Positions 44,993-56,686 of a stretch of DNA of 64,000 nucleotides are shown here, piece by piece. A program made the position numbers and the translations under genes. The notes below the pieces were generated by a model. The model was given only the letters and a program-made list of their open reading frames with translations, was not told where the DNA came from and made no database searches. This DNA comes from an uncultured Prevotellaceae bacterium (GTDB taxonomy: Bacteria; Bacteroidota; Bacteroidia; Bacteroidales; Bacteroidaceae): the NCBI GenBank assembly GCA_947176895.1, contig CAMWSK010000002.1, positions 108,617 through 172,616 on the forward strand, given 5' to 3'. Positions within the stretch are counted from its first letter, which is position 1. Every line of letters starts with the position of its first letter.

Positions 44993-45136
44993 GATAAAAA
45001 CATGAACATGTTTTTATCGTTCCGGCCATCAGCAAGGGGTATATACAATTCATGGGACTGTGACAACGCAAAAAAACATGTTCATCTTTTTCAAAAACAT
45101 GAACATGTTTTCATCGAAACATCCTCATGTTTTTTT
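44993..45136. repeat. Cluster of 4 AAAACATG..CATGTTTT-type repeats (locus C)
   Basis: GATAAAAACATG-AA-CATGTTTTTATC (44993-45018), AAAAAACATGTTCATCTTTTT (45071-45091), AAAAACATGAACATGTTTT (45093-45111), AAACATCCTCATGTTTTTTT (45117-45136). Confidence 0.92.
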
Positions 45137-46851
45137 CAGGTTTCGGGATTGTCAAACAAGTCTTCCAATTGCTTTGTGAGCTCTTTGGTCAGGCGGAAAG
45201 CCGTTGTCCTGGGTATGCCCATGGCATTCCGGACCTCAATCCACGTGAAACCAAGTTTCAGGAGATGGCAAATGTCTATCTTCTTCTTGTTGATACGCGT
45301 GATTCCCTTCTGTATGTGTGCAGAAAAGTCCGGGTCTTCCTTCGCTATCACGTTATATAATGTTGTCCAGTCACGTTCCGTCGGCTTGTATTGTCCCGCT
45401 GCCGCCTTGCGGAATTTTATATAGATATTATTGGTGGCGTCGCTCTCAAGAAGCTCTTGTCGCCGGACTCTGGCCAAGCGGGTGTTCCGGTCATGGGCTT
45501 CCTTGATTTCCTCTTTCTGCGACTCGATGAGGGAACGGTTCTGTGTGATGATCTCATCACATTTCTGCAACCGGGCCTCCTTGTCTTCAATGGCTTTGTC
45601 TTTCCGCATCAGCTCTTTCTTCCCCCTTTCGATGGCCCGTGACGATTTCCTTCTGTAAATCACGTAGATGTATGCGATGAGAAGAACGGAAATAACGGCG
45701 ACGGACAGAACAGTCAGGCTCCTGCGCCACAGTGCGGTGGACTTCCTGTACGCGGCATCCTCCTTTGCCGCATTTCTGTAATACCTGTATTCATTGTAGG
45801 CATCGGCCGTCTGTTGCAGATGCAGTTTTTTCCATATGGAATCCTGCAGTTCGGCATAGATATGGCCATATTTCAGGCTCTCCGCGTCGTTGCCGGCCAG
45901 GCTGTAGAGCCTCAGCAGCTCGCGGGCGGCTTCGCTCTTCTTGTCCTGTTCGGGACTTCGCTCAAAAAGCTCCTTGTAATAATGTATGGCAGAATCCGGC
46001 ATGTTCTTGGACTTGAAGTACACGGCTTTTGCAATATGGTAATTGGAGGGAAGACGGTCCTTATGGACCAGGCTGTCAAACAGGGCATAATATTTGTCCG
46101 CCTTTGATAAATCACCGAACCGGGCATAATTGGAAAACATCTCGGCCAGGATGTCCATGTTGCCCTTAAAGTCATTATGCCTCTGCATGTATTCGATGGC
46201 CTTCTCATAGTAAAGGAACGTGGAATCTTCTTTTTTTACATGAAAATAGCAGGTGGCGACATCCATTATGCCCCGCGCATCGTATTTTCCGACGGCCAAC
46301 AGGAAATCCTTCTCCTTCTTGGCGTATTCCAAAGACTTTTCGAAATGGTTTTGTTTGAAAAAGATGAAAGACAGTTGCGAGCAGACGTTGGCCACAAGCA
46401 GCGTGTCGATGCTTTCGCGTGCGTCTTCCGCTATTTCCAGGGCTTTCGTATAGCATCTCACCGTTTGCGGGAAATCGTGAAGGTCGCGGCAGACGCTTCC
46501 CCGGTAGTAATAGGCTTCGACTCTTTCGTTGCTGTTGCCGTGCGCGTCGTAGAACTCCACAACCTGCCTGATGGAGTCCAGCGTTTGCGGGGTATGCGGG
46601 ACGAAGGCTTTGTCCCGTGCCTTGATGGCCAGCAGGGCATGTCTGATGCGTGCGTATGTATTTGCCTTTTCCATCTCCGGGGCGATGGAATCCAACATGC
46701 GTATGGCCCGGCGCGGGTCGATGTCACACAGGGAGTCCGCCTGAGACAGGACGGCAGGCAAAGGGTGGCGCCCGGCTTTTCCCGTGAGCAATACGATTGT
46801 GCCGGCCAGGCACAAGACGAGAACAGGAATGAGGATTTTGCGTTTTTTCAT
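45136..46851 (-). CDS. TPR-repeat membrane protein with C-terminal HTH-like region (probable transcriptional regulator)
   Basis: Lipoprotein/TM-like N-terminus (MKKRKILIPVLVLCLAGTIVLL), TPR-like helices, internal TM (LTVLSVAVISVLLIAYIYVIY), coiled coil, and C-terminal INKKKIDICHLLKLGFTWIEVRNAMGIPRTTAFRLTKEL (HTH-like). Confidence 0.75.
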   Translation of the reverse strand: MKKRKILIPVLVLCLAGTIVLLTGKAGRHPLPAVLSQADSLCDIDPRRAIRMLDSIAPEMEKANTYARIRHALLAIKARDKAFVPHTPQTLDSIRQVVEFYDAHGNSNERVEAYYYRGSVCRDLHDFPQTVRCYTKALEIAEDARESIDTLLVANVCSQLSFIFFKQNHFEKSLEYAKKEKDFLLAVGKYDARGIMDVATCYFHVKKEDSTFLYYEKAIEYMQRHNDFKGNMDILAEMFSNYARFGDLSKADKYYALFDSLVHKDRLPSNYHIAKAVYFKSKNMPDSAIHYYKELFERSPEQDKKSEAARELLRLYSLAGNDAESLKYGHIYAELQDSIWKKLHLQQTADAYNEYRYYRNAAKEDAAYRKSTALWRRSLTVLSVAVISVLLIAYIYVIYRRKSSRAIERGKKELMRKDKAIEDKEARLQKCDEIITQNRSLIESQKEEIKEAHDRNTRLARVRRQELLESDATNNIYIKFRKAAAGQYKPTERDWTTLYNVIAKEDPDFSAHIQKGITRINKKKIDICHLLKLGFTWIEVRNAMGIPRTTAFRLTKELTKQLEDLFDNPET

Positions 46852-46874
46852 GTTGTAGATGAAGGGTCCGGCCA

Positions 46875-46882
46875 CAAATTTA
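46875..46882 (-). promoter_or_regulatory. -7 promoter element TAAATTTG for TPR regulator
   Basis: Minus-strand TAnnTTTG match, 23 nt upstream of start 46851. Confidence 0.55.
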
Positions 46883-47156: not shown

Positions 47157-47379
47157 ATGAAGAAGTTCTTATTTAACAGGATTATTGCCTGTATCGTGAT
47201 GTTTTTCTGTAGCGGTGTTCCCGGCTATTGTCAGGATGTCGTATTGCCTATTCATTTGTCTTATGACACCAACAATAGTCATGGCCGGAATCGGATGCTT
47301 TCTTCCTTCAGGGTGCTATGCCATTACGATATGGCTCCAAGGCTCTGCATATACAGGAACGTTTGAGGTTGAGGAATAA
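47157..47379 (+). pseudogene. Degraded small secreted protein gene (possibly DUF3244-like)
   Basis: N-terminus MKKFLFNRIIACIVMFFCSGVPGYCQDVVLPIHLSYDTNNSHGRNRM in one frame; LPSGCYAITIWLQGSAYTGTFEVEE* in the +1 frame ending at 47379. Confidence 0.5.
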
Positions 47380-47396
47380 ACAAAAAGCATTGCGTA

Positions 47397-49829
47397 ATGA
47401 TGAAAACGAAGCCTTCTGTTTCTGTATGTATGCCGATGTACAACGCATCCCCTTACTTGAGGGAATGTGTAGACAGCATACTTTCACAATCGTTCGAGGA
47501 TTTCGAGTTGTTGATTGTGGATGATGGCTCTACGGATGACAGTGTGGAAATTGTCCGCTCTTATGGTGATGAAAGGATACGGCTTATTGAGAACAAGCAT
47601 GACTATATCGGAAGCCTGAACATCTTGCTTGACGAAGCACGTGGCAAGTATATCGCCCGAATGGATGCCGATGATGTGATGATGCCTGAGCGGCTACAGG
47701 CTCAATATGATTATATGGAGTGCCACCCATCTATCGACCTTGTCGCTTCAGGAATGAACTACATAGGGAATGGTGGGCGAACATTTGTGCCGCCTGTAAC
47801 AGACAGGTGTATAAACCCCAAAGACATGCTTGAAAGTTGCTGTATAGCCCATCCCACCGTTTTCGTAAGAACGGATGTCTTTAAGAAACATGATTTACGA
47901 TATCGGGAAGAGTATAAGTATGCGGAAGATTACAGGTTGTGGGCGGAGATGCTCATGTCGGGATTACGTTTGACAAATATCGAACGTCCGCTGATAAACT
48001 ATCGTGTCTCATGTAGCCAAATCAGCCATGTCAAAGGGGATGTCCAGGCTCGGGTCTCAGGCAAAATACAAAATGAGTTAGGGCAATGGATCTGGACAAC
48101 AGAAGAGTCTGTCATCAAGGAGTCATACGACTTTCCGATAAGTGGCAATAAACTGACATTGGTCATTCCTTTCTTGAATGAGGGGGAAGAAGTCGCCAAT
48201 ACCGTGAGAAGCGCAAGGGAACATGTGGGCGATGGTGTTGATATCATCGTTATAAATGATTGCTCAACGGATGGCTATAATTATCCGGAAGATTTAGAGG
48301 GCTTGAATGTGCTCTATGTCGAGAATCGAATCAGTATTGGCGCAGCTGCCTCAAAGGACAAGGGTGCCCGATTGTCCACCACTCCATACTTTATTCTTTT
48401 GGATGCCCATATGCGTTTCTATGACAGGCATTGGCTTGACCGGTATATCGAGGAGTTGGATAAGGATGATAACAGGATTTTGTGTTGTCAGACAAGATGG
48501 CTTGGTAAAAGGAATGGTGTGGTGGAAGAGGGCAATAAGGCAGATACGAGAGGTGCGTTCCTCCGGTTTGACGATGTCATATTAATGCCCGGAATCCATT
48601 GGGACAATTATGAACACAACGGATATCTCAGCGCTGACAAGATTCCCGCGGTCTTGGGAGCGACTTATGGAGCAAGTAAAAGATTCTGGAACAGAATAAA
48701 GGGCTTGCAAGGACTGATACATTATGGCTGCGAAGAAGCATATATGAGTATCAAGGCATACCTGTCCGGAGGCTGCTGCTCTTTTGTCCCGGATGTTTCT
48801 ATCGGACATATTTACCGTGAGGCTGCGCCGTATCAAATGTATTATGAAGACACGGTCTACAATAATTTCTGGATTATGCAGACCTTGTTCCCGACATCAC
48901 TGCGCTGCTACGCTACAAGTAAATGCCTCTGGCATTATCCTGATTTGACAAAAAAGCTGATGGAAAGAATGGCTGAAAAGGAGAAGCAAATACGAGAATT
49001 AAAATCGTATTATCAAAAGCAGCAAGAAAGGGATTTCTCATACATTCTGGATATTAACGACCAATTTGTCCCGGAAGAGGAAAAGGACGTGTTGGAGAAA
49101 GCTAAATTGCTTCCGGATATTTTACACTTTGTAGAATCGGATGGAAGTGGCGCAATTGGCATTTGGCAAGGGAATATGGGGAAAGTCATATTCTTGTGCA
49201 ATGCATTTAATGTTAGCAAAGAAAAAGCAATAGATGACCATGCCACAATTTTATTTGCCGGCATTGAAGACGCGATAAGGAATTGTTATTGCTGGAATTT
49301 CAAGGATGGTTTGTCCGGAATCGGATGGGGGTTGATTTATCTTTATACACACAACTACATAGACGATATAGAGGATTTGCTTGATTTTATTGACGAACGG
49401 ATAATGTGTGTCAATGTCAAGCGTATCCGTGATGATTCTTTTGACAATGGAATAGGAGGAATCCTTGCCTACGCGGTCGCACGCCTGGGATATTGCAAGC
49501 GCAATAAAGCCGACATTCCTTTTGATGACCTTTTTGTAACCGAATTAAAGGAACGGGCTCTGTTGGTGATAACGAAAAAGAATGTGCAGGATTATCGTTC
49601 ATATAGTTATGCCCGTCAATTGCAGGAGTATGCTCCTGATGATTCAAGTTGGGAAATTCTTCGCCCTGAGTTGTGGGAGATTTTTGAATTTCCTGACAGT
49701 ATCAACGAGAACAAGGCAAATTGGAGCATATCCATGCAGAACTGCTTAGGATATGGCTTATTTGTTCTTGAAAAAATGCGCAAGTTATTAAATATAAAAA
49801 ATATCAAACATGAAATTAAGTTATTATAA
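47397..49829 (+). CDS. Three-module enzyme: GT2 glycosyltransferase + polypeptide GalNAc-transferase-like GT + LanC-like C-terminal region
   Basis: Module 1: SVSVCMPMYNASPYLRECVDSILSQSFEDFELLIVDDGSTDDS...RMDADD. Module 2 from about residue 252: LTLVIPFLNEGEEV...VINDCSTDG...FILLDAHMRFYDRHWLD (DxH). Module 3 from about residue 636: DGLSGIGWGLIYL...DNGIGGILAYAVARLGYC. Confidence 0.8.
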   Translation: MMKTKPSVSVCMPMYNASPYLRECVDSILSQSFEDFELLIVDDGSTDDSVEIVRSYGDERIRLIENKHDYIGSLNILLDEARGKYIARMDADDVMMPERLQAQYDYMECHPSIDLVASGMNYIGNGGRTFVPPVTDRCINPKDMLESCCIAHPTVFVRTDVFKKHDLRYREEYKYAEDYRLWAEMLMSGLRLTNIERPLINYRVSCSQISHVKGDVQARVSGKIQNELGQWIWTTEESVIKESYDFPISGNKLTLVIPFLNEGEEVANTVRSAREHVGDGVDIIVINDCSTDGYNYPEDLEGLNVLYVENRISIGAAASKDKGARLSTTPYFILLDAHMRFYDRHWLDRYIEELDKDDNRILCCQTRWLGKRNGVVEEGNKADTRGAFLRFDDVILMPGIHWDNYEHNGYLSADKIPAVLGATYGASKRFWNRIKGLQGLIHYGCEEAYMSIKAYLSGGCCSFVPDVSIGHIYREAAPYQMYYEDTVYNNFWIMQTLFPTSLRCYATSKCLWHYPDLTKKLMERMAEKEKQIRELKSYYQKQQERDFSYILDINDQFVPEEEKDVLEKAKLLPDILHFVESDGSGAIGIWQGNMGKVIFLCNAFNVSKEKAIDDHATILFAGIEDAIRNCYCWNFKDGLSGIGWGLIYLYTHNYIDDIEDLLDFIDERIMCVNVKRIRDDSFDNGIGGILAYAVARLGYCKRNKADIPFDDLFVTELKERALLVITKKNVQDYRSYSYARQLQEYAPDDSSWEILRPELWEIFEFPDSINENKANWSISMQNCLGYGLFVLEKMRKLLNIKNIKHEIKLL

Positions 49830-51111
49830 CTACGAGGAGAATAACGGCGATAGTTACATTCTATATAATTGCAGGACTGACGAATTGCTGTTTCTTAATG
49901 AGGATTTGAAAAGGATTTGGCTGGATAATTCCACAAAACAATTAGAAAGAATAGAGGAAATATATCCGGACTTTTTTAAATATCTTCTTGACAAAGGATT
50001 TATCGTGAACGATTCTGTAGATGAACGAGCAGATTTTTTGTCTACACTTCAAGAAGAGGATATCAACGAGGATAGCTTCTCCATCATCGTCAACCCTACG
50101 CTGGATTGCAACATGAGATGCTGGTACTGCTATGAAAAACATTTGTCCGACTCTTACATGAATAAAGACATGATGGAGAGAATCCTAAAACTGGCAAAAA
50201 CCAAGATTTCTAATCCGAAGTTAAAGACTTTTTCCATATCCTTTTTTGGAGGAGAACCTTTATTGTCATTTGACGATTGTGTCTTTCCTCTTCTTCAGGA
50301 GGTGGATAGACTTTGTGCATGCGAGAAAAAGATGCTGGTCGTTTCATTTACTTCCAATGCGTTTTTGCTGAATGATGACATGGTATCTAAGTTGAATTCT
50401 CTCCGATTGGCTCGACCTGTTGATTGGCAAATAACCATAGACGGTGGACGTGCTTTACATAACAAAACCAGACATACAGTTGACAAACAGGATACATATG
50501 ACACAATCGTAAATAACATTCTTCGCATTCTTGCAGCAGACATGAGTGTGACGGTCCGATTCAATTACCGGAACAAATCTGTTATGTCGTTTCTGGACGT
50601 GGTTGATTCATTCAGGGAGTATGCCAAAGTCTATGAAGGGAAACTGGCCTTTTGTTTCCAACAGATTTGGCAAGATGCCACGCAATGTGGCAATGCCCGG
50701 ATGTACGAAGAAACATTGGACGAAGTGAAAAAATCTTTTGAAGGTGCAGGGCTTCGCGTGGTAGGAAATACCGAAAGTCCCACACGCTGCTATGCTGACA
50801 AGACAAATAGTATTGTCATTAATTTTGACGGGAATGTCTTTAAGTGTACAGCGAGGGATTTCAAAGAGGAAAATGCAGAAGGCGTATTAGATACGGATGG
50901 GGTTGTACATTATAATGCAAAATTTCATGATAGAATGAAGGCTAAATATGCCAATAGAATTTGCCTTTCTTGTATCATTTATCCGTTGTGTTTTGGAGGA
51001 TGCACTCAAAAGCTGTTGTACAACAGGGATAAGTGTTCCCGAGAACTTGATAAAGAGGGGGTCACTGAATTTATTAGACAAAGAATCTTGCTTCTGGCAA
51101 GACATATATAA
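49810..51111 (+). CDS. Radical SAM/SPASM peptide maturase
   Basis: IVNPTLDCNMRCWYCYEKHL (CxxxCxxC), FFGGEPLLSF, C-terminal Cys cluster CLSCIIYPLCFGGCTQ; overlaps preceding gene by 20 bp. Confidence 0.9.
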   Translation: MKLSYYNYEENNGDSYILYNCRTDELLFLNEDLKRIWLDNSTKQLERIEEIYPDFFKYLLDKGFIVNDSVDERADFLSTLQEEDINEDSFSIIVNPTLDCNMRCWYCYEKHLSDSYMNKDMMERILKLAKTKISNPKLKTFSISFFGGEPLLSFDDCVFPLLQEVDRLCACEKKMLVVSFTSNAFLLNDDMVSKLNSLRLARPVDWQITIDGGRALHNKTRHTVDKQDTYDTIVNNILRILAADMSVTVRFNYRNKSVMSFLDVVDSFREYAKVYEGKLAFCFQQIWQDATQCGNARMYEETLDEVKKSFEGAGLRVVGNTESPTRCYADKTNSIVINFDGNVFKCTARDFKEENAEGVLDTDGVVHYNAKFHDRMKAKYANRICLSCIIYPLCFGGCTQKLLYNRDKCSRELDKEGVTEFIRQRILLLARHI

Positions 51112-51135: not shown

Positions 51136-51396
51136 ATGAAAAGAACCTTAAAACATGGAACTCATTTGGTTGAGTTGAAGCGAGAAATTCCGGAAATGCG
51201 CATTTCGCAAGCCGAAAAACTTACAGGAGGTTTTTTAGGTATTTCCGTACATGCTCAAGGAGCAGGTGTATCCAATATTAATATCTTTTTCTGTAAGTGC
51301 ACAAATGATATTAATTGTGGAGATTGTGACAGTACGCCGACTGCCACCCCTACTTCTACAAAAAGGCGTAGTGTGGGTGTTGCGTTAGGATTCTAA
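51136..51396 (+). CDS. RiPP precursor peptide with double-glycine leader
   Basis: MKRTLKHGTHLVELKREIPEMRISQAEKLTGG / FLGISVHAQGAGVSNINIFFCKCTNDINCGDCDSTPTATPTSTKRRSVGVALGF; immediately 3' of a rSAM maturase. Confidence 0.8.
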   Translation: MKRTLKHGTHLVELKREIPEMRISQAEKLTGGFLGISVHAQGAGVSNINIFFCKCTNDINCGDCDSTPTATPTSTKRRSVGVALGF

Positions 51397-51458: not shown

Positions 51459-51480
51459 AGAGAGAGAGAGAGAGAGAGAG
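51459..51480. repeat. (AG)11 dinucleotide microsatellite
   Basis: Uninterrupted AG x 11 between the hairpin and the outer-membrane protein gene. Confidence 0.95.
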
Positions 51481-51575
51481 AACATGTGCCTCTCAGCAAA
51501 GCAAAAGTGGCAGTTCGGTAAACTCAGATACAGAAATTATTGTCGGGCACGAAGAAATCTAAACTTGTTTCCAAA

Positions 51576-54509
51576 ATGAAAAAACATATTATCTTTTACG
51601 TACTTCTATTCTTGGCCGTGTATGCTCATGCTCAGGAAAAGCCGTTACTTACCACAGATGACTTGATGAAGAAGGAGTATCACATTCTCTATGGTCAGGT
51701 ATTGGATAATGTGACGCGCAAGCCGCTGATTGACGTAAAAACGCAGTTGCTCACAAAGGATAGTGTCTTGGTATTCGAGTGGACAATCAATAATGAAAAC
51801 GGGGTGGCCGATTTGCGCCCCGTATATTTAGTACCCATACCGGAGGCCGGAGAATATATCTTACGGTTAAGCAGGGATAAGTATGAAACCGCCACCATCC
51901 CCTACAAAATCGACAGGCTGAGAAAAAGTGAGAAGGCCATATTGCACAATCCTGTCACAATGAAGCGTGCACCCCGCGAAGTAATCATGAACGAGGTTGT
52001 CATAAAAGCCACAAAGGTCAAGTTTTATGTTCGTGGAGATACATTAGTATATAATGCAGATGCTTTCCAACTGGAGGAGGGCTCCATGCTTGATGCTTTG
52101 ATACGACAATTGCCGGGAACAGAGTTAAAAGACGACGGACGCATCTTCGTGAACGGGAAACAGGTGGAAAGTCTTCTGCTGAACGGCGAGGACTTTTTCA
52201 AGAAAGACAGAACCATCATGTTGGAGAACCTGCCTACTTATATGGTTAACAAGGTGCAGGTGTATGAAAAGGAAGGGCAGACCAGCCAATTGTTGGGGAA
52301 GAAGATTGGCGACCAACAACTGGTGATGGACGTGCGACTAAAGAAGCAATACGAGATTGGCTGGATGGGCAATGTGGAGGCTGCGGGTGGAACCCACGAA
52401 CGTTACTTGGCACGCCTTTTCGCCTTGCGTTTCACTGCCCACTCCCGTCTGTCAGCCTTTGCCAACGTCAACAATTTAAACGACAGACAGCGCCCCGGAC
52501 AAAACAGCGAATGGATGCCCGCCATAGAAAACGGGATGAGAACCATACAAAATGGTGGAATAGACTATCTTATCAATGACCGTATGCACAGGTTCAAAAT
52601 AGAGGGAGAAGCCACCGTAAACCATACAGATACAAGGACAAGGGAATTGACCGCCAGTCAAACTTTCCTGCAAGGCGGTGACTTGTATGGGCGTATACGC
52701 AATACAAGCAATGCACACGACCTTAATTTCAATACCAATCACCACTGGACTTTCAACAGTAAATGGATAAATGTCACGTTGAACCCCGACCTTCACTATT
52801 CTTCCAACAGTGGCAGCAGCCTTATCCGTTCTGTTCAGGCAGGCAGGGATAATCTGTCGGATGGATCCTTGGATACACTCTTTGCTTCGGATGTGTCCCC
52901 CGCCAAACTGGCCAATATCATCAACCGTGTGTCCGATGAATCCAAAAACGACGGCTACTACCTGTCTACCGGTATGAAAGTACAAGCTGCCATAAAGGTG
53001 CCGCACACGAATGACAACATCTTGCTGGAGGCACACGGCAATTACATTGACACCAAGCACGACAACTTTGCCCACAAACTGTATGACTATCCCCAAGGTG
53101 GTGCTCCGGCAGATTTGAGAAATGAGTACGGGAGGAATGACTATCGCAGTTATTCTGCTACGGCCAAGGCCACATACTATTATTGGGGCGTGGGGCGTAA
53201 CTGGCTCATCAAGCCCTCATATGAATACACGACGGACCATACCCGTCAGAACAATGGACTGTACCGTCTTGATTATCTGATGCAGGACATCAGCGATTGG
53301 CCCGAACTGGGTGTGTTGCCGTCTGTGACAGATTGGATGAAACAGACCTACGACCCGGAACACAGCAAGTATGCCACCCAACAGAACGATTATCATGTGG
53401 TGACATTGAACATACATAAGAACGAGTATAAGAACAATAAGTGGACTCTTGATTTCAACCTTCCCCTCAGCATAGACCGCAGCCAATTGGATTACAACCG
53501 GCCGGCCCTGGTCGATACGACGATTACTAAACATTACGTATTTTTTCGTCCCTCACTATGGGCACGTAAAAGATGGGTCAACAAGTCGGAGGATGGCCGG
53601 GTGCAATCTTACCACGAATTGGGAACAAGTTATCATCTCTCCATGACACCTGCATCCATAGGTTATTTTGTGGACGTGCGCACAAATGACAATCCGCTGA
53701 AAGTGTATATTGGCAACAATGATTTGCATGTGACACACAATCACCGTTGGGAGGTAAATTATATGTGGAACAGTCCGGAAACGCAACGCATGGTGTCTTC
53801 CGTCGTTTCTTACCAACTGTCGCGCAATGACATAGCCATGGGATACACCTACGACAGGCAGACCGGCATCTATACCTATCGTCCCGAAAACGTGAATGGC
53901 AATAATGTCATCTTGGGCCATGTCACTTTCTCCACGCCGTTGGACAAGCGTAAACGCCTGAAGCTGGAACTGAATACCGATGCATCTTACCGACATAGTA
54001 TTGACCTCAGCAGCGACTCTCCTGACCAGCCCCTGCAGAAAAGCGTTGTCAACACCACCAACTTGACACAGGGCTTGCGTATAAATTATTCCATAGGTTC
54101 CGTTCACTTGGGGGGAAAGAGCTCGGTGACATATACGCACCAGACTTCGCCCAGAACCGGTTTCATTCCCACGACTGCAGCATCGTACCACTATGGTGTC
54201 AATTGCTCGGCGGATATTCCCATGGGATGGCAAATCTCCACGGACGCAACCATGTACAGTCGCAGGGGATATGCTGATGAATCCTTTAATACAGACAACT
54301 TCGTGTGGAATATACGTGTGGCAAAGAAGTTAATGAAGGGCAGGCTAATCCTTATGCTTGACGGATTTGACATTCTGAACAACATCTCCAACGTACGCCA
54401 AACCGTGAACGCCCAAGGACGCACAGAAACCTGGTATATGTCTATTCCGCGTTATGCCATGCTGCATGTCGTATACAGAATCAGCAAATCGCCCAAAAAG
54501 AAATCATGA
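51576..54509 (+). CDS. Outer membrane beta-barrel protein (TonB-receptor-like, carboxypeptidase-regulatory-like N-terminus)
   Basis: MKKHIIFYVLLFLAVYAHAQ signal; YGQVLDNVTRKPLIDVKTQLL; NEVVIKATKVKFYVRGDTLVYNADAFQLEEGSMLDALIRQLPG; barrel-like C-terminus. ATG 51576 preferred over 51540. Confidence 0.85.
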   Translation: MKKHIIFYVLLFLAVYAHAQEKPLLTTDDLMKKEYHILYGQVLDNVTRKPLIDVKTQLLTKDSVLVFEWTINNENGVADLRPVYLVPIPEAGEYILRLSRDKYETATIPYKIDRLRKSEKAILHNPVTMKRAPREVIMNEVVIKATKVKFYVRGDTLVYNADAFQLEEGSMLDALIRQLPGTELKDDGRIFVNGKQVESLLLNGEDFFKKDRTIMLENLPTYMVNKVQVYEKEGQTSQLLGKKIGDQQLVMDVRLKKQYEIGWMGNVEAAGGTHERYLARLFALRFTAHSRLSAFANVNNLNDRQRPGQNSEWMPAIENGMRTIQNGGIDYLINDRMHRFKIEGEATVNHTDTRTRELTASQTFLQGGDLYGRIRNTSNAHDLNFNTNHHWTFNSKWINVTLNPDLHYSSNSGSSLIRSVQAGRDNLSDGSLDTLFASDVSPAKLANIINRVSDESKNDGYYLSTGMKVQAAIKVPHTNDNILLEAHGNYIDTKHDNFAHKLYDYPQGGAPADLRNEYGRNDYRSYSATAKATYYYWGVGRNWLIKPSYEYTTDHTRQNNGLYRLDYLMQDISDWPELGVLPSVTDWMKQTYDPEHSKYATQQNDYHVVTLNIHKNEYKNNKWTLDFNLPLSIDRSQLDYNRPALVDTTITKHYVFFRPSLWARKRWVNKSEDGRVQSYHELGTSYHLSMTPASIGYFVDVRTNDNPLKVYIGNNDLHVTHNHRWEVNYMWNSPETQRMVSSVVSYQLSRNDIAMGYTYDRQTGIYTYRPENVNGNNVILGHVTFSTPLDKRKRLKLELNTDASYRHSIDLSSDSPDQPLQKSVVNTTNLTQGLRINYSIGSVHLGGKSSVTYTHQTSPRTGFIPTTAASYHYGVNCSADIPMGWQISTDATMYSRRGYADESFNTDNFVWNIRVAKKLMKGRLILMLDGFDILNNISNVRQTVNAQGRTETWYMSIPRYAMLHVVYRISKSPKKKS

Positions 54510-56686
54510 AATTCACCCGGCAATTCGACCAGATGGACTGCGGGCCGGCCTGTATCCGCATGGTGGCCTCGGCCTACGGAAAGGATTATCCGCTGTCTTA
54601 CCTGCGCTCCCTTTCGTATCTTACCCGTGAGGGGGTGAGCGTGGCGGGCATCCGCCATGCGCTCGGGGAAATCGGCATGGAGAGCGCCACGTTTGAGATG
54701 ACCCCGGAACAGCTGCGCGAGAAGTGCCCCCTGCCCGCCATCCTGCATTGGGAACAGAACCATTTTGTGGTCCTCTATAAGGTAAGGCAAAACCGGTGGA
54801 CCGGAAAGTGGAGCTACCACATTGCCAATCCCGCCTATGGCAAGCATGGTTTCACGGAAGAGTCCTTCTGCGGTTACTGGCTGAATGGCGACAAGGGGGT
54901 CGTGGTGGCCATAGAGCCCAAGGAGGAGTTTTTCGAGAAGAGGCCCGTCAAGGAAAAACACAGCCTTTTGCGCTTCGCCCGCAAATATGTGTGGCCCTAC
55001 CGGTGGGAACTCTCGCAATCGGCCCTGGGCATGCTGTTTGGCATGCTGCTGTCGCTCGTCACCCCCTTCCTTACCCAGGCCATGGTGGACGACGGCATCG
55101 GCATGCGGGACATGGGCCTTATCCTGGACATCCTGTTCGCCCAGGTGTTTCTCTTTGTCGGCACCTTCCTCATGGGGCTTGTCAGCAGCCATGTGAGCCT
55201 GTACATGAGCACGCGCATCAACATCCACGTGCTCAGCGACTACCTGACCAAACTGCTGAAACTGCCGATGACCTTCTTTGACACGAAAAGCGTGGGAGAC
55301 TACCAGCAGCGTCTGGGTGACCACGGACGTCTGCAGGGCTTTGTCACCTACAGCACCCTGCAGACCTTCTTCTCCATCATTTCCGCTCCGTTCTATCTGG
55401 CCATTATCGGGTGGTACAGCCCGGTCATCTTGGGGGCGTATCTGTTGCTGACAGGCTTGAGCACGGCATGGATGACCTATTTCTTCCGCCGGCGCAAGGC
55501 CATGGATTATGAGCAGTTCAAGATCAATGCGGAGAACCAGAACAAACAATATGAGCTGATGTCCGGCATCACGGACATAAAGCTCAATGCCTATGACGAC
55601 TATAAGATGGAGGAATGGCGTGCCTTGCAGGAACGCAGCTACAGGATGAACGTGAAGATGCTGAAGCTGGGACAGATACAGGACACCGGCTTCACCGTGA
55701 TAGGGCAATTGCGTAACATCTTCATCACCTGCTGGATCGCCGCCGAGGTGGTGAACGGGAATCTGACCCTGGGTATGATGATGAGCATCTCTGCCATCAT
55801 CGGACTGGTGAACGGCCCTCTCTCGCAGCTCATCGGCTTCCTGCAACAGTTCCAGGACGCCAAGATCAGCCTGGAACGTTCCGAGGAGGTGCACCTTTGC
55901 GCCAACGAGGATTCCCCTTTGCAAAGTGAGGTGCCCACGGATGCGCCGCTGGACATAGAGGTGCGCGACCTGACCTTCTCCTATGCCGGCAGCATCGGGA
56001 AGCCGGCCTTGGAGAGGGTGTCGTTCACCATACCGGCGGGAAGGATGACGGCCATCGTGGGCGAAAGCGGAAGCGGCAAGACGACGCTGATGAAGCTGCT
56101 TCTGAAATTTTACGAGCCTACCGCCGGAGGCATCTTCCTTGGCGGAAGGCCCTTGGCAGGCTATTCCGCCAAATCAATGCGCCAGGCCTCCGGAATCGTC
56201 ATGCAGGACAACTTCATCTTTTCCGACACCATCCGGCGCAACGTGGTCTTGGGGGAGGATGATGATGACAACCGCCTGGGAAAGGCCTTGTCGATAGCCT
56301 GCCTGGACGGTTTCATCGGGCGGCAGCCCTTGGGGGTGAACACGAAGATAGGTGCCGAAGGCATGGGGGTGAGCGGGGGAGAAAAACAGCGTATAATGAT
56401 TGCGCGTGCCGCCTATAAGCGTCCGGTGTACCTTATGCTGGACGAGGCCACCTCGTCACTCGATGCCGAGAACGAGAGGAGAATCACGGACAACATCGCC
56501 CGCACCTTCGAGAACCGCACCCGCATCATCATTGCCCACCGGCTTTCGACCGTGCGCAACGCCGACCGGATAATCGTGTTGCGACACGGACGGGTGGTGG
56601 AGCAAGGCACACATGCCGAATTGACGGACGCCCGGGGATATTATTATCAACTTATCCACAACCAGCTGGAGCTTGCAGCCGACTAA
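54506..56686 (+). CDS. Peptidase-containing ABC transporter (C39 peptidase; bacteriocin-type exporter)
   Basis: FDQMDCGPACIRMVASAYGKDY...LPAILHWEQNHFVVLYKV C39 domain, TM domain, ABC (VGESGSGKTTLMKLLLKFYEPTAGGI, VSGGEKQRIMIARA). ATGA overlap with upstream gene. Confidence 0.95.
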   Translation: MKFTRQFDQMDCGPACIRMVASAYGKDYPLSYLRSLSYLTREGVSVAGIRHALGEIGMESATFEMTPEQLREKCPLPAILHWEQNHFVVLYKVRQNRWTGKWSYHIANPAYGKHGFTEESFCGYWLNGDKGVVVAIEPKEEFFEKRPVKEKHSLLRFARKYVWPYRWELSQSALGMLFGMLLSLVTPFLTQAMVDDGIGMRDMGLILDILFAQVFLFVGTFLMGLVSSHVSLYMSTRINIHVLSDYLTKLLKLPMTFFDTKSVGDYQQRLGDHGRLQGFVTYSTLQTFFSIISAPFYLAIIGWYSPVILGAYLLLTGLSTAWMTYFFRRRKAMDYEQFKINAENQNKQYELMSGITDIKLNAYDDYKMEEWRALQERSYRMNVKMLKLGQIQDTGFTVIGQLRNIFITCWIAAEVVNGNLTLGMMMSISAIIGLVNGPLSQLIGFLQQFQDAKISLERSEEVHLCANEDSPLQSEVPTDAPLDIEVRDLTFSYAGSIGKPALERVSFTIPAGRMTAIVGESGSGKTTLMKLLLKFYEPTAGGIFLGGRPLAGYSAKSMRQASGIVMQDNFIFSDTIRRNVVLGEDDDDNRLGKALSIACLDGFIGRQPLGVNTKIGAEGMGVSGGEKQRIMIARAAYKRPVYLMLDEATSSLDAENERRITDNIARTFENRTRIIIAHRLSTVRNADRIIVLRHGRVVEQGTHAELTDARGYYYQLIHNQLELAAD

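Follow-up and report, generated by a model that had tools for sequence, protein, structure and literature searches.

The window, a 64,000-nucleotide stretch of DNA from an uncultured Prevotellaceae bacterium, encodes an 810-residue protein that probably serves as peptide glycosyltransferase for a RiPP rich in Cys and modified by a radical SAM enzyme. Judged from sequence and predicted structure, it would glycosylate the Thr/Pro-rich tail of a precursor encoded nearby through a GT27-like domain, with a half-LanC module holding the precursor. The initial annotation had described the ORF as a fusion of a GT2 glycosyltransferase, a GalNAc-transferase-like GT-A domain and a LanC-like module. The ORF and all the motifs that it quoted are in place (Table 1), and the three-part layout is borne out by Pfam, PDB profiles and structure models, with the same domain order in approximately 20 homologues. 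The predicted structures contain the second GT-A fold and a LanC-family-like domain; the full LanC barrel that had also been anticipated is present as a half only.

Table 1. Features of the 810-residue glycosyltransferase and its operon, in window coordinates
Feature	Position	Strand	Basis or remark
TPR protein, distant BT3442-family similarity, candidate regulator	45136..46875	-	upstream, divergent
GT2 + GT27-like GT-A + half-LanC-like protein, 810 aa	47397..49829	+	ORF with ATG start
GT2 domain, residues 1-235 (DDGSTDDS, MDADD, AED)	47397..48101	+	PF00535
GT27-like GT-A domain, residues 245-515	48129..48941	+	PDB profile and Foldseek
DAH (D336-A-H338), GT27-type DxH metal motif	48402..48410	+	27-homologue alignment
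YGCEE (443-447), opposite WGGEN/WGGEQ of GalNAc-Ts	48723..48737	+	alignments
GHIYR (470-474), third metal-ligand His and Arg at catalytic loop start	48804..48818	+	alignments
Truncated LanC-like all-helical module, residues 535-810	48999..49826	+	NisC profile match, AF2 model
Radical SAM/SPASM peptide maturase, CNMRCWYC motif	49810..51111	+	PF04055, E 8.5e-11
Precursor peptide, 86 aa	51136..51396	+	leader, core, tail, hydrophobic C-terminus
STPTATPTST, proposed O-glycosylation segment of precursor	51331..51360	+	sequence, group statistics
Outer-membrane beta-barrel protein (OMP_b-brl_3)	51540..54509	+	PF14905, E 1.6e-11
C39 peptidase ABC exporter	54506..56686	+	PF03412, PF00664, PF00005
Small conserved protein without family, 145 aa	56701..57138	+	L039 homologue beside exporter

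The gene sits in a RiPP cluster that combines a GG-leader precursor, a modifying enzyme and a C39 exporter, and that recurs elsewhere. The start of the radical SAM maturase gene overlaps the end of the glycosyltransferase gene, and the two are neighbours across loci. The maturase falls outside the NCBIfam family TIGR04463, scoring 144.5 bits (E 4e-42) against a curated cut-off of 525. Downstream of the precursor the outer-membrane protein gene also holds a conserved position and may start with the ATG at 51577. Just upstream of it lie some 11 GA dinucleotides in a row (51459-51481), a possible phase-variable tract. Relatives of the divergently encoded TPR protein adjoin other RiPP loci, and the interval 47157-47381 holds what looks like the remains of a small secreted protein, one of a type seen beside other RiPP loci, its N-terminal signal part and a C-terminal YTGTFEVEE lying in different frames with the middle gone.

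Approximately 25 related GT27-like loci were found in Bacteroidales. Some 20 loci keep the same gene order; they come from Prevotellaceae/Bacteroidaceae genomes, among them Prevotella sp. MGM2, Paraprevotella and rumen MAGs, and several of the compared contigs stop short of the exporter. This conserved association of radical SAM enzyme, precursor, outer-membrane protein and C39 ABC exporter supports the earlier proposal that the protein could glycosylate a peptide, here as part of a RiPP cluster; nothing was found in favour of the processive action that had been proposed along with it. That it is instead a surface-polysaccharide or general protein glycosyltransferase, and a mere neighbour of the cluster, is highly improbable. 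The GT2 domain is indeed matched by many further GT2 genes in the same genome, but the gene order is preserved in many loci, the gene end overlaps the radical SAM gene, and the LanC-like module of the protein is associated with RiPPs in its other copies. A bystander surface-glycan gene was ruled out on operon conservation.

The N-terminal domain is an ordinary GT2 glycosyltransferase with DxD and ED motifs. PF00535 matches the protein with an E-value of 7.7e-50 in two GT2-type stretches, the stronger one spanning residues 9-129. The closest PDB structures to this domain are SpsA and the chondroitin synthase K4CP, which likewise carries two GT-A domains per chain, although the product of K4CP is a polysaccharide and its second domain is not GT27-like.

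The second GT-A domain resembles the polypeptide GalNAc-transferases of family GT27, with which it can be aligned along its length. Searched as a single sequence, residues 255-480 match GalNAc-T2 and GalNAc-T10 (E ~1e-6), and residues 243-810 retrieve human and fly polypeptide GalNAc-transferases from the solved structures, again at E ~1e-6. Compared with the PDB, a profile of 27 such second domains returns GalNAc-T10, T9, T2 and T1 at E 2e-19 to 3e-18. The AlphaFold2 model (pTM 0.72, built from a seven-sequence alignment) resembles GalNAc-T2 and T. gondii GalNAc-T3 with a Foldseek E-value of ~1e-12. The best profile value and the Foldseek value together rule out a chance likeness of motifs. 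A more distant sequence hit, PDB 8UHV, is another T. gondii GalNAc-T3 (PMC11074326). The DAH motif, earlier read as the DxH metal motif of GalNAc-transferases, does align with it, and D336, H338 and H471 are invariant in 27/27 homologues at the positions of the GalNAc-T DxH and third-His metal ligands. The domain has in common with GalNAc-T2, GalNAc-T10 and T. gondii GalNAc-T3 the GT-A fold, the DxH and third His, the GHxxR..PY loop and, presumably, a Thr/Pro-rich acceptor.

Fold, DxH and third His therefore uphold the description as GalNAc-transferase-like, but the protein is not a plain polypeptide GalNAc-transferase. E447, invariant in the 27 sequences, occupies the position of Asn335 in GalNAc-T2 and of a Gln in T10, and the bacterial group has YGxEE or YGxDE where GT27 enzymes have WGGE followed by Asn or Gln without an xED acid. 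Unlike GT27 enzymes, the protein is bacterial and fused to a GT2 domain, and a half-LanC module stands in place of the C-terminal ricin-type lectin domain. The GT60-type Pfam model PF11397 is weakly matched by 8 of the 27 members. An xED acid is the catalytic base in inverting GT-A families, and clade 5 unites the inverting GT7/GT2-CHS enzymes with GT27 and the retaining GT60 (PMC7185993). Given an invariant E447 and a clade of mixed stereochemistry, we name the domain GT27-like rather than GT27. Inversion is possible with a Glu at the catalytic-base position, and the GalNAc-transferase label may be wrong in both sugar and stereochemistry, E447 being a departure from GT27. One variant of the main explanation would have the domain invert, with E447 as base in the manner of the xED acid of GT7/GT2 enzymes, a beta-linked sugar on Thr, and an origin in a bacterial branch of the GT7/GT27/GT60 clade outside true GT27. 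We regard this variant as possible but somewhat doubtful. The invariance of E447, the use of an xED acid by inverting relatives and the PF11397 matches speak for it; the DxH and the GHxxR His, on the other hand, are of GT27 type, and some retaining families keep an xED acid that they do not use (PMC7185993).

The likely acceptor, overlooked in the initial annotation, is the tail of the nearby precursor peptide, which is rich in Thr and Pro. In the window this peptide has a leader ending in EKLTGGF, a Cys-containing core, a Thr/Pro tail and a hydrophobic C-terminus. Among main-group precursors the leader ends in LxGGF in 31/31 and is followed by a Cys/Asn-rich core and then mostly by a Thr/Pro-rich stretch, as in PTPTPTPTPTGT (L052), TTTTTTTTTT (L055), TTPTTPTTPT (L054) and the segment STPTATPTST of the window. 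Dense T/S/P stretches, defined as at least 7 of 12 residues being T, S or P, occur in 71% of precursors from GT27-like loci, compared with 20% in a control set of precursors (Bacteroidales RiPP loci without a GT27-like domain) and 5% of random 70-residue stretches; at least three TP, PT or TT steps occur in 68% of GT27-like-locus precursors versus 0%. Counted by locus, a tail is found in 21/25 GT27-like loci versus 0/3 related radical SAM loci lacking the domain (Fisher p 0.011), a value uncorrected for relatedness, and throughout these tail statistics the sequences are related and phylogeny is not corrected for. The three sister loci (L123, L124, L125) encode Cys/Asn-type cores and no Thr/Pro tail, with Gly/Ser in the tail of L125. 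The glycosyltransferase gene of L122 is missing merely because the contig ends, and this locus was hence left out of the GT27-less controls.

A tail is present in all of the loci that came to light once the hypothesis had been framed (L099, L122 and L126/L127; L128 and L129 duplicate L040 and L039 and do not enter the new-locus count). L099 belongs to a different family and has its GT2 and GT27-like domains in separate genes, and its tail reads TTPTPTPSSTTPTP; that of L126/L127 reads TTTTTTTTPSPTGTSS. Tails are weak in 4 of the 25 loci (L039, L043, L061, L062), the divergent GT27-like loci L073, L097 and L098 have no clear mucin-like tail, and a search for a precursor at L072 returned none. 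These weak or missing tails suggest that acceptor choice may vary.

The distribution of the tail also bears on which of the two catalytic domains it belongs to. L063 and L070, in which a GT2 was not found, retain it; L074 and L080 lack it and have a GT2 40-49% identical to that of the window but no GT27-like domain. The presence of the tail goes with that of the GT27-like domain, not with that of GT2. For this reason we consider it unlikely that the sugar is put on Cys, Ser or Asn residues within the Cys/Asn-rich core in the manner of the S-glycosyltransferase SunS, with the tail as a flexible spacer, even though the GT2 part of the family profile weakly matches SunS (PDB 7msn, E 2e-9) and some RiPP loci with Cys-rich precursors have a GT2 relative but no GT27. 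A neutral spacer, moreover, would not be expected to favour Thr, and in L125, a sister locus without the GT27-like domain, the tail is Gly/Ser instead.

Neighbouring genes at two loci give hints as to the sugar. In L064 the gene directly upstream (L064:7214-8281), overlapping the glycosyltransferase gene by 4 bp, encodes a UDP-xylose synthase homologue that matches residues 35-350 of 355 of human UDP-glucuronate decarboxylase (UDP-xylose synthase) in the PDB at E ~1e-112. An earlier reading of this gene as an epimerase possibly supplying UDP-GalNAc was dropped on that comparison. In L066 a GT11-family, fucosyltransferase-type gene (L066:7879-8685) ends 20 bp upstream of the glycosyltransferase gene. 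The two genes suggest that strains may use different sugars, which would not have to be GalNAc.

The similarity of the C-terminal module to the LanC family, noted in the initial annotation, holds for half a barrel. In Pfam the 810-residue protein itself has no LanC match. The family profile matches residues 29-171 of NisC at profile positions 585-721 (E 1e-6), and free-standing half-LanC homologues of ~230 residues match PF05147. Modelled alone with AF2 (pTM 0.83), the domain has MadC, LanCL2, NisC and LicM2 as its top PDB matches (Foldseek prob 1.0), with weak E-values of 0.004-0.01 and TM ~0.4, as expected for a half barrel. The NisC coverage and the partial model match both fall short of a complete alpha/alpha toroid. 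The module is homologous to the first half of the toroid of LanC and LanM cyclase domains (NisC, LicM2, MadC) and, unlike them, is coupled to a glycosyltransferase and lacks the second, zinc-bearing half. In the homologue alignment the region of the Cys...Cys-His ligands is absent and no conserved Cys/His set takes its place; the remark that a zinc-ligand motif was wanting was thus correct.

Could this part still have cyclase activity, or be a toroid of glycosidase-like type that acts on peptide or glycan? Its distant fold likeness to LanC enzymes, with GH76 as a lower-ranked Foldseek match, would be compatible with such activity, but the NisC alignment ends at residue 171, ahead of the zinc ligands, with no substitute Cys/His set, and Pfam and NCBIfam annotation of the operon contains no dehydratase gene. 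We consider such an activity very improbable. A lanthipeptide product was ruled out on the half barrel, the missing ligands and the absent dehydratase gene.

A role as peptide-holding partner of RiPP glycosyltransferases is suggested for the half-LanC module by its genetic coupling. Free-standing half-LanC genes overlap or abut a TIGR04157-type GT4 gene in 12 of 16 loci, with a maximum gap of 12 bp and a 4-bp overlap as the commonest arrangement, and GT4-LanC fusions are encoded at two loci (L056:477-2471 and L079:9098-10972). Coupling to glycosyltransferases of two different folds argues for substrate holding, and both adjacency and fusions support the earlier suggestion of a LanC-like scaffold that serves a glycosyltransferase rather than lanthionine formation. 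The L056 fusion lies ~7 kb upstream of a GT2-GT27-like-LanC gene. The window's own genome has a second half-LanC/TIGR04157-glycosyltransferase RiPP locus (L088:7827-10144, in the series L074-L090).

Our results are consistent with a model in which the GT27-like domain would place the first sugar on Thr or Ser of the precursor's Thr/Pro-rich tail, much as polypeptide GalNAc-transferases act on mucin-like sequences. The GT2 domain would add a second sugar or act at another site, and the half-LanC module may hold the precursor, by its leader or core, for both catalytic domains. The radical SAM enzyme would modify, and probably crosslink, the Cys/Asn-rich part, and the C39 exporter would cut the predicted leader after GG and export the glycopeptide.

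The components of the fusion are rearranged in several relatives. GT2 is missing beside GT27-like and LanC parts in L063, L070 and L097, is a separate neighbouring gene in L072, L098 and L099, and in L073 the GT27-like domain stands alone. In L071 (L071:3052-5442) GT2-GT27-like is in frame with the C-terminal part of the radical SAM maturase, and the LanC module and radical SAM core are absent, apparently through a deletion or an assembly join. Six clusters (L058, L060, L063, L064, L066, L069) encode 2-3 precursors each, with near-identical leaders and differing cores. The GT27-like domain is rare and mainly found in Bacteroidales: a scan of the order detected it in 3 of 392 other genomes, and a scan of the phylum gave one marginal partial match besides the window's own genome.

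Known peptide glycosylation systems share parts of this arrangement. Glycocins such as sublancin (SunS) and enterocin F4-9 also pair a dedicated peptide glycosyltransferase with a GG leader and an exported peptide. Glycocin glycosyltransferases are GT2-only enzymes, and to our knowledge glycocins involve no radical SAM maturase, LanC half or mucin-like tail. Closer at hand are the radical SAM RiPP clusters of Bacteroidales, including TIGR04157 systems, which according to the available passages of the survey by Fernandez-Cantos et al. (2023) have GG-leader precursors, a C39 exporter and a radical SAM enzyme, together with zinc-motif-less LanC-like proteins, suspected there to be endoglucanase-like, and glycosyltransferases nearby (PMC10352776). 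Those passages do not describe the GT2-GT27-like-LanC fusion, Thr/Pro-tailed precursors or a tight coupling of LanC and glycosyltransferase (PMC10352776).

In the open literature covered by the PMC open subset, with subscription papers and preprints outside the search, no description of the fusion or of a bacterial GT27 was found. Peptide glycosylation and Bacteroidales radical SAM RiPPs are known kinds, but we could not find an account of their combination, or of a GT27-like enzyme from bacteria that acts on a mucin-like substrate. The first step of mucin-type O-glycosylation is usually regarded as a eukaryotic reaction. We tentatively propose that Bacteroidales may make a class of mucin-like glycosylated RiPPs by means of a cytosolic, possibly inverting relative of the GalNAc-transferases, with sugar chains tailored by strain and a split LanC barrel as a general peptide gripper for both GT-A and GT-B RiPP glycosyltransferases. 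If so, a bacterial enzyme with a genetically linked small substrate would offer a tractable system for acceptor choice in the GT27 clade, and the same system would be informative on the switch between retaining and inverting chemistry within it. The zinc-less 'LanC' genes of gut Bacteroidales, otherwise puzzling, would be explained as glycosyltransferase partners, and the finding would point to a family of exported, crosslinked and sugar-coated peptides in the gut and rumen.
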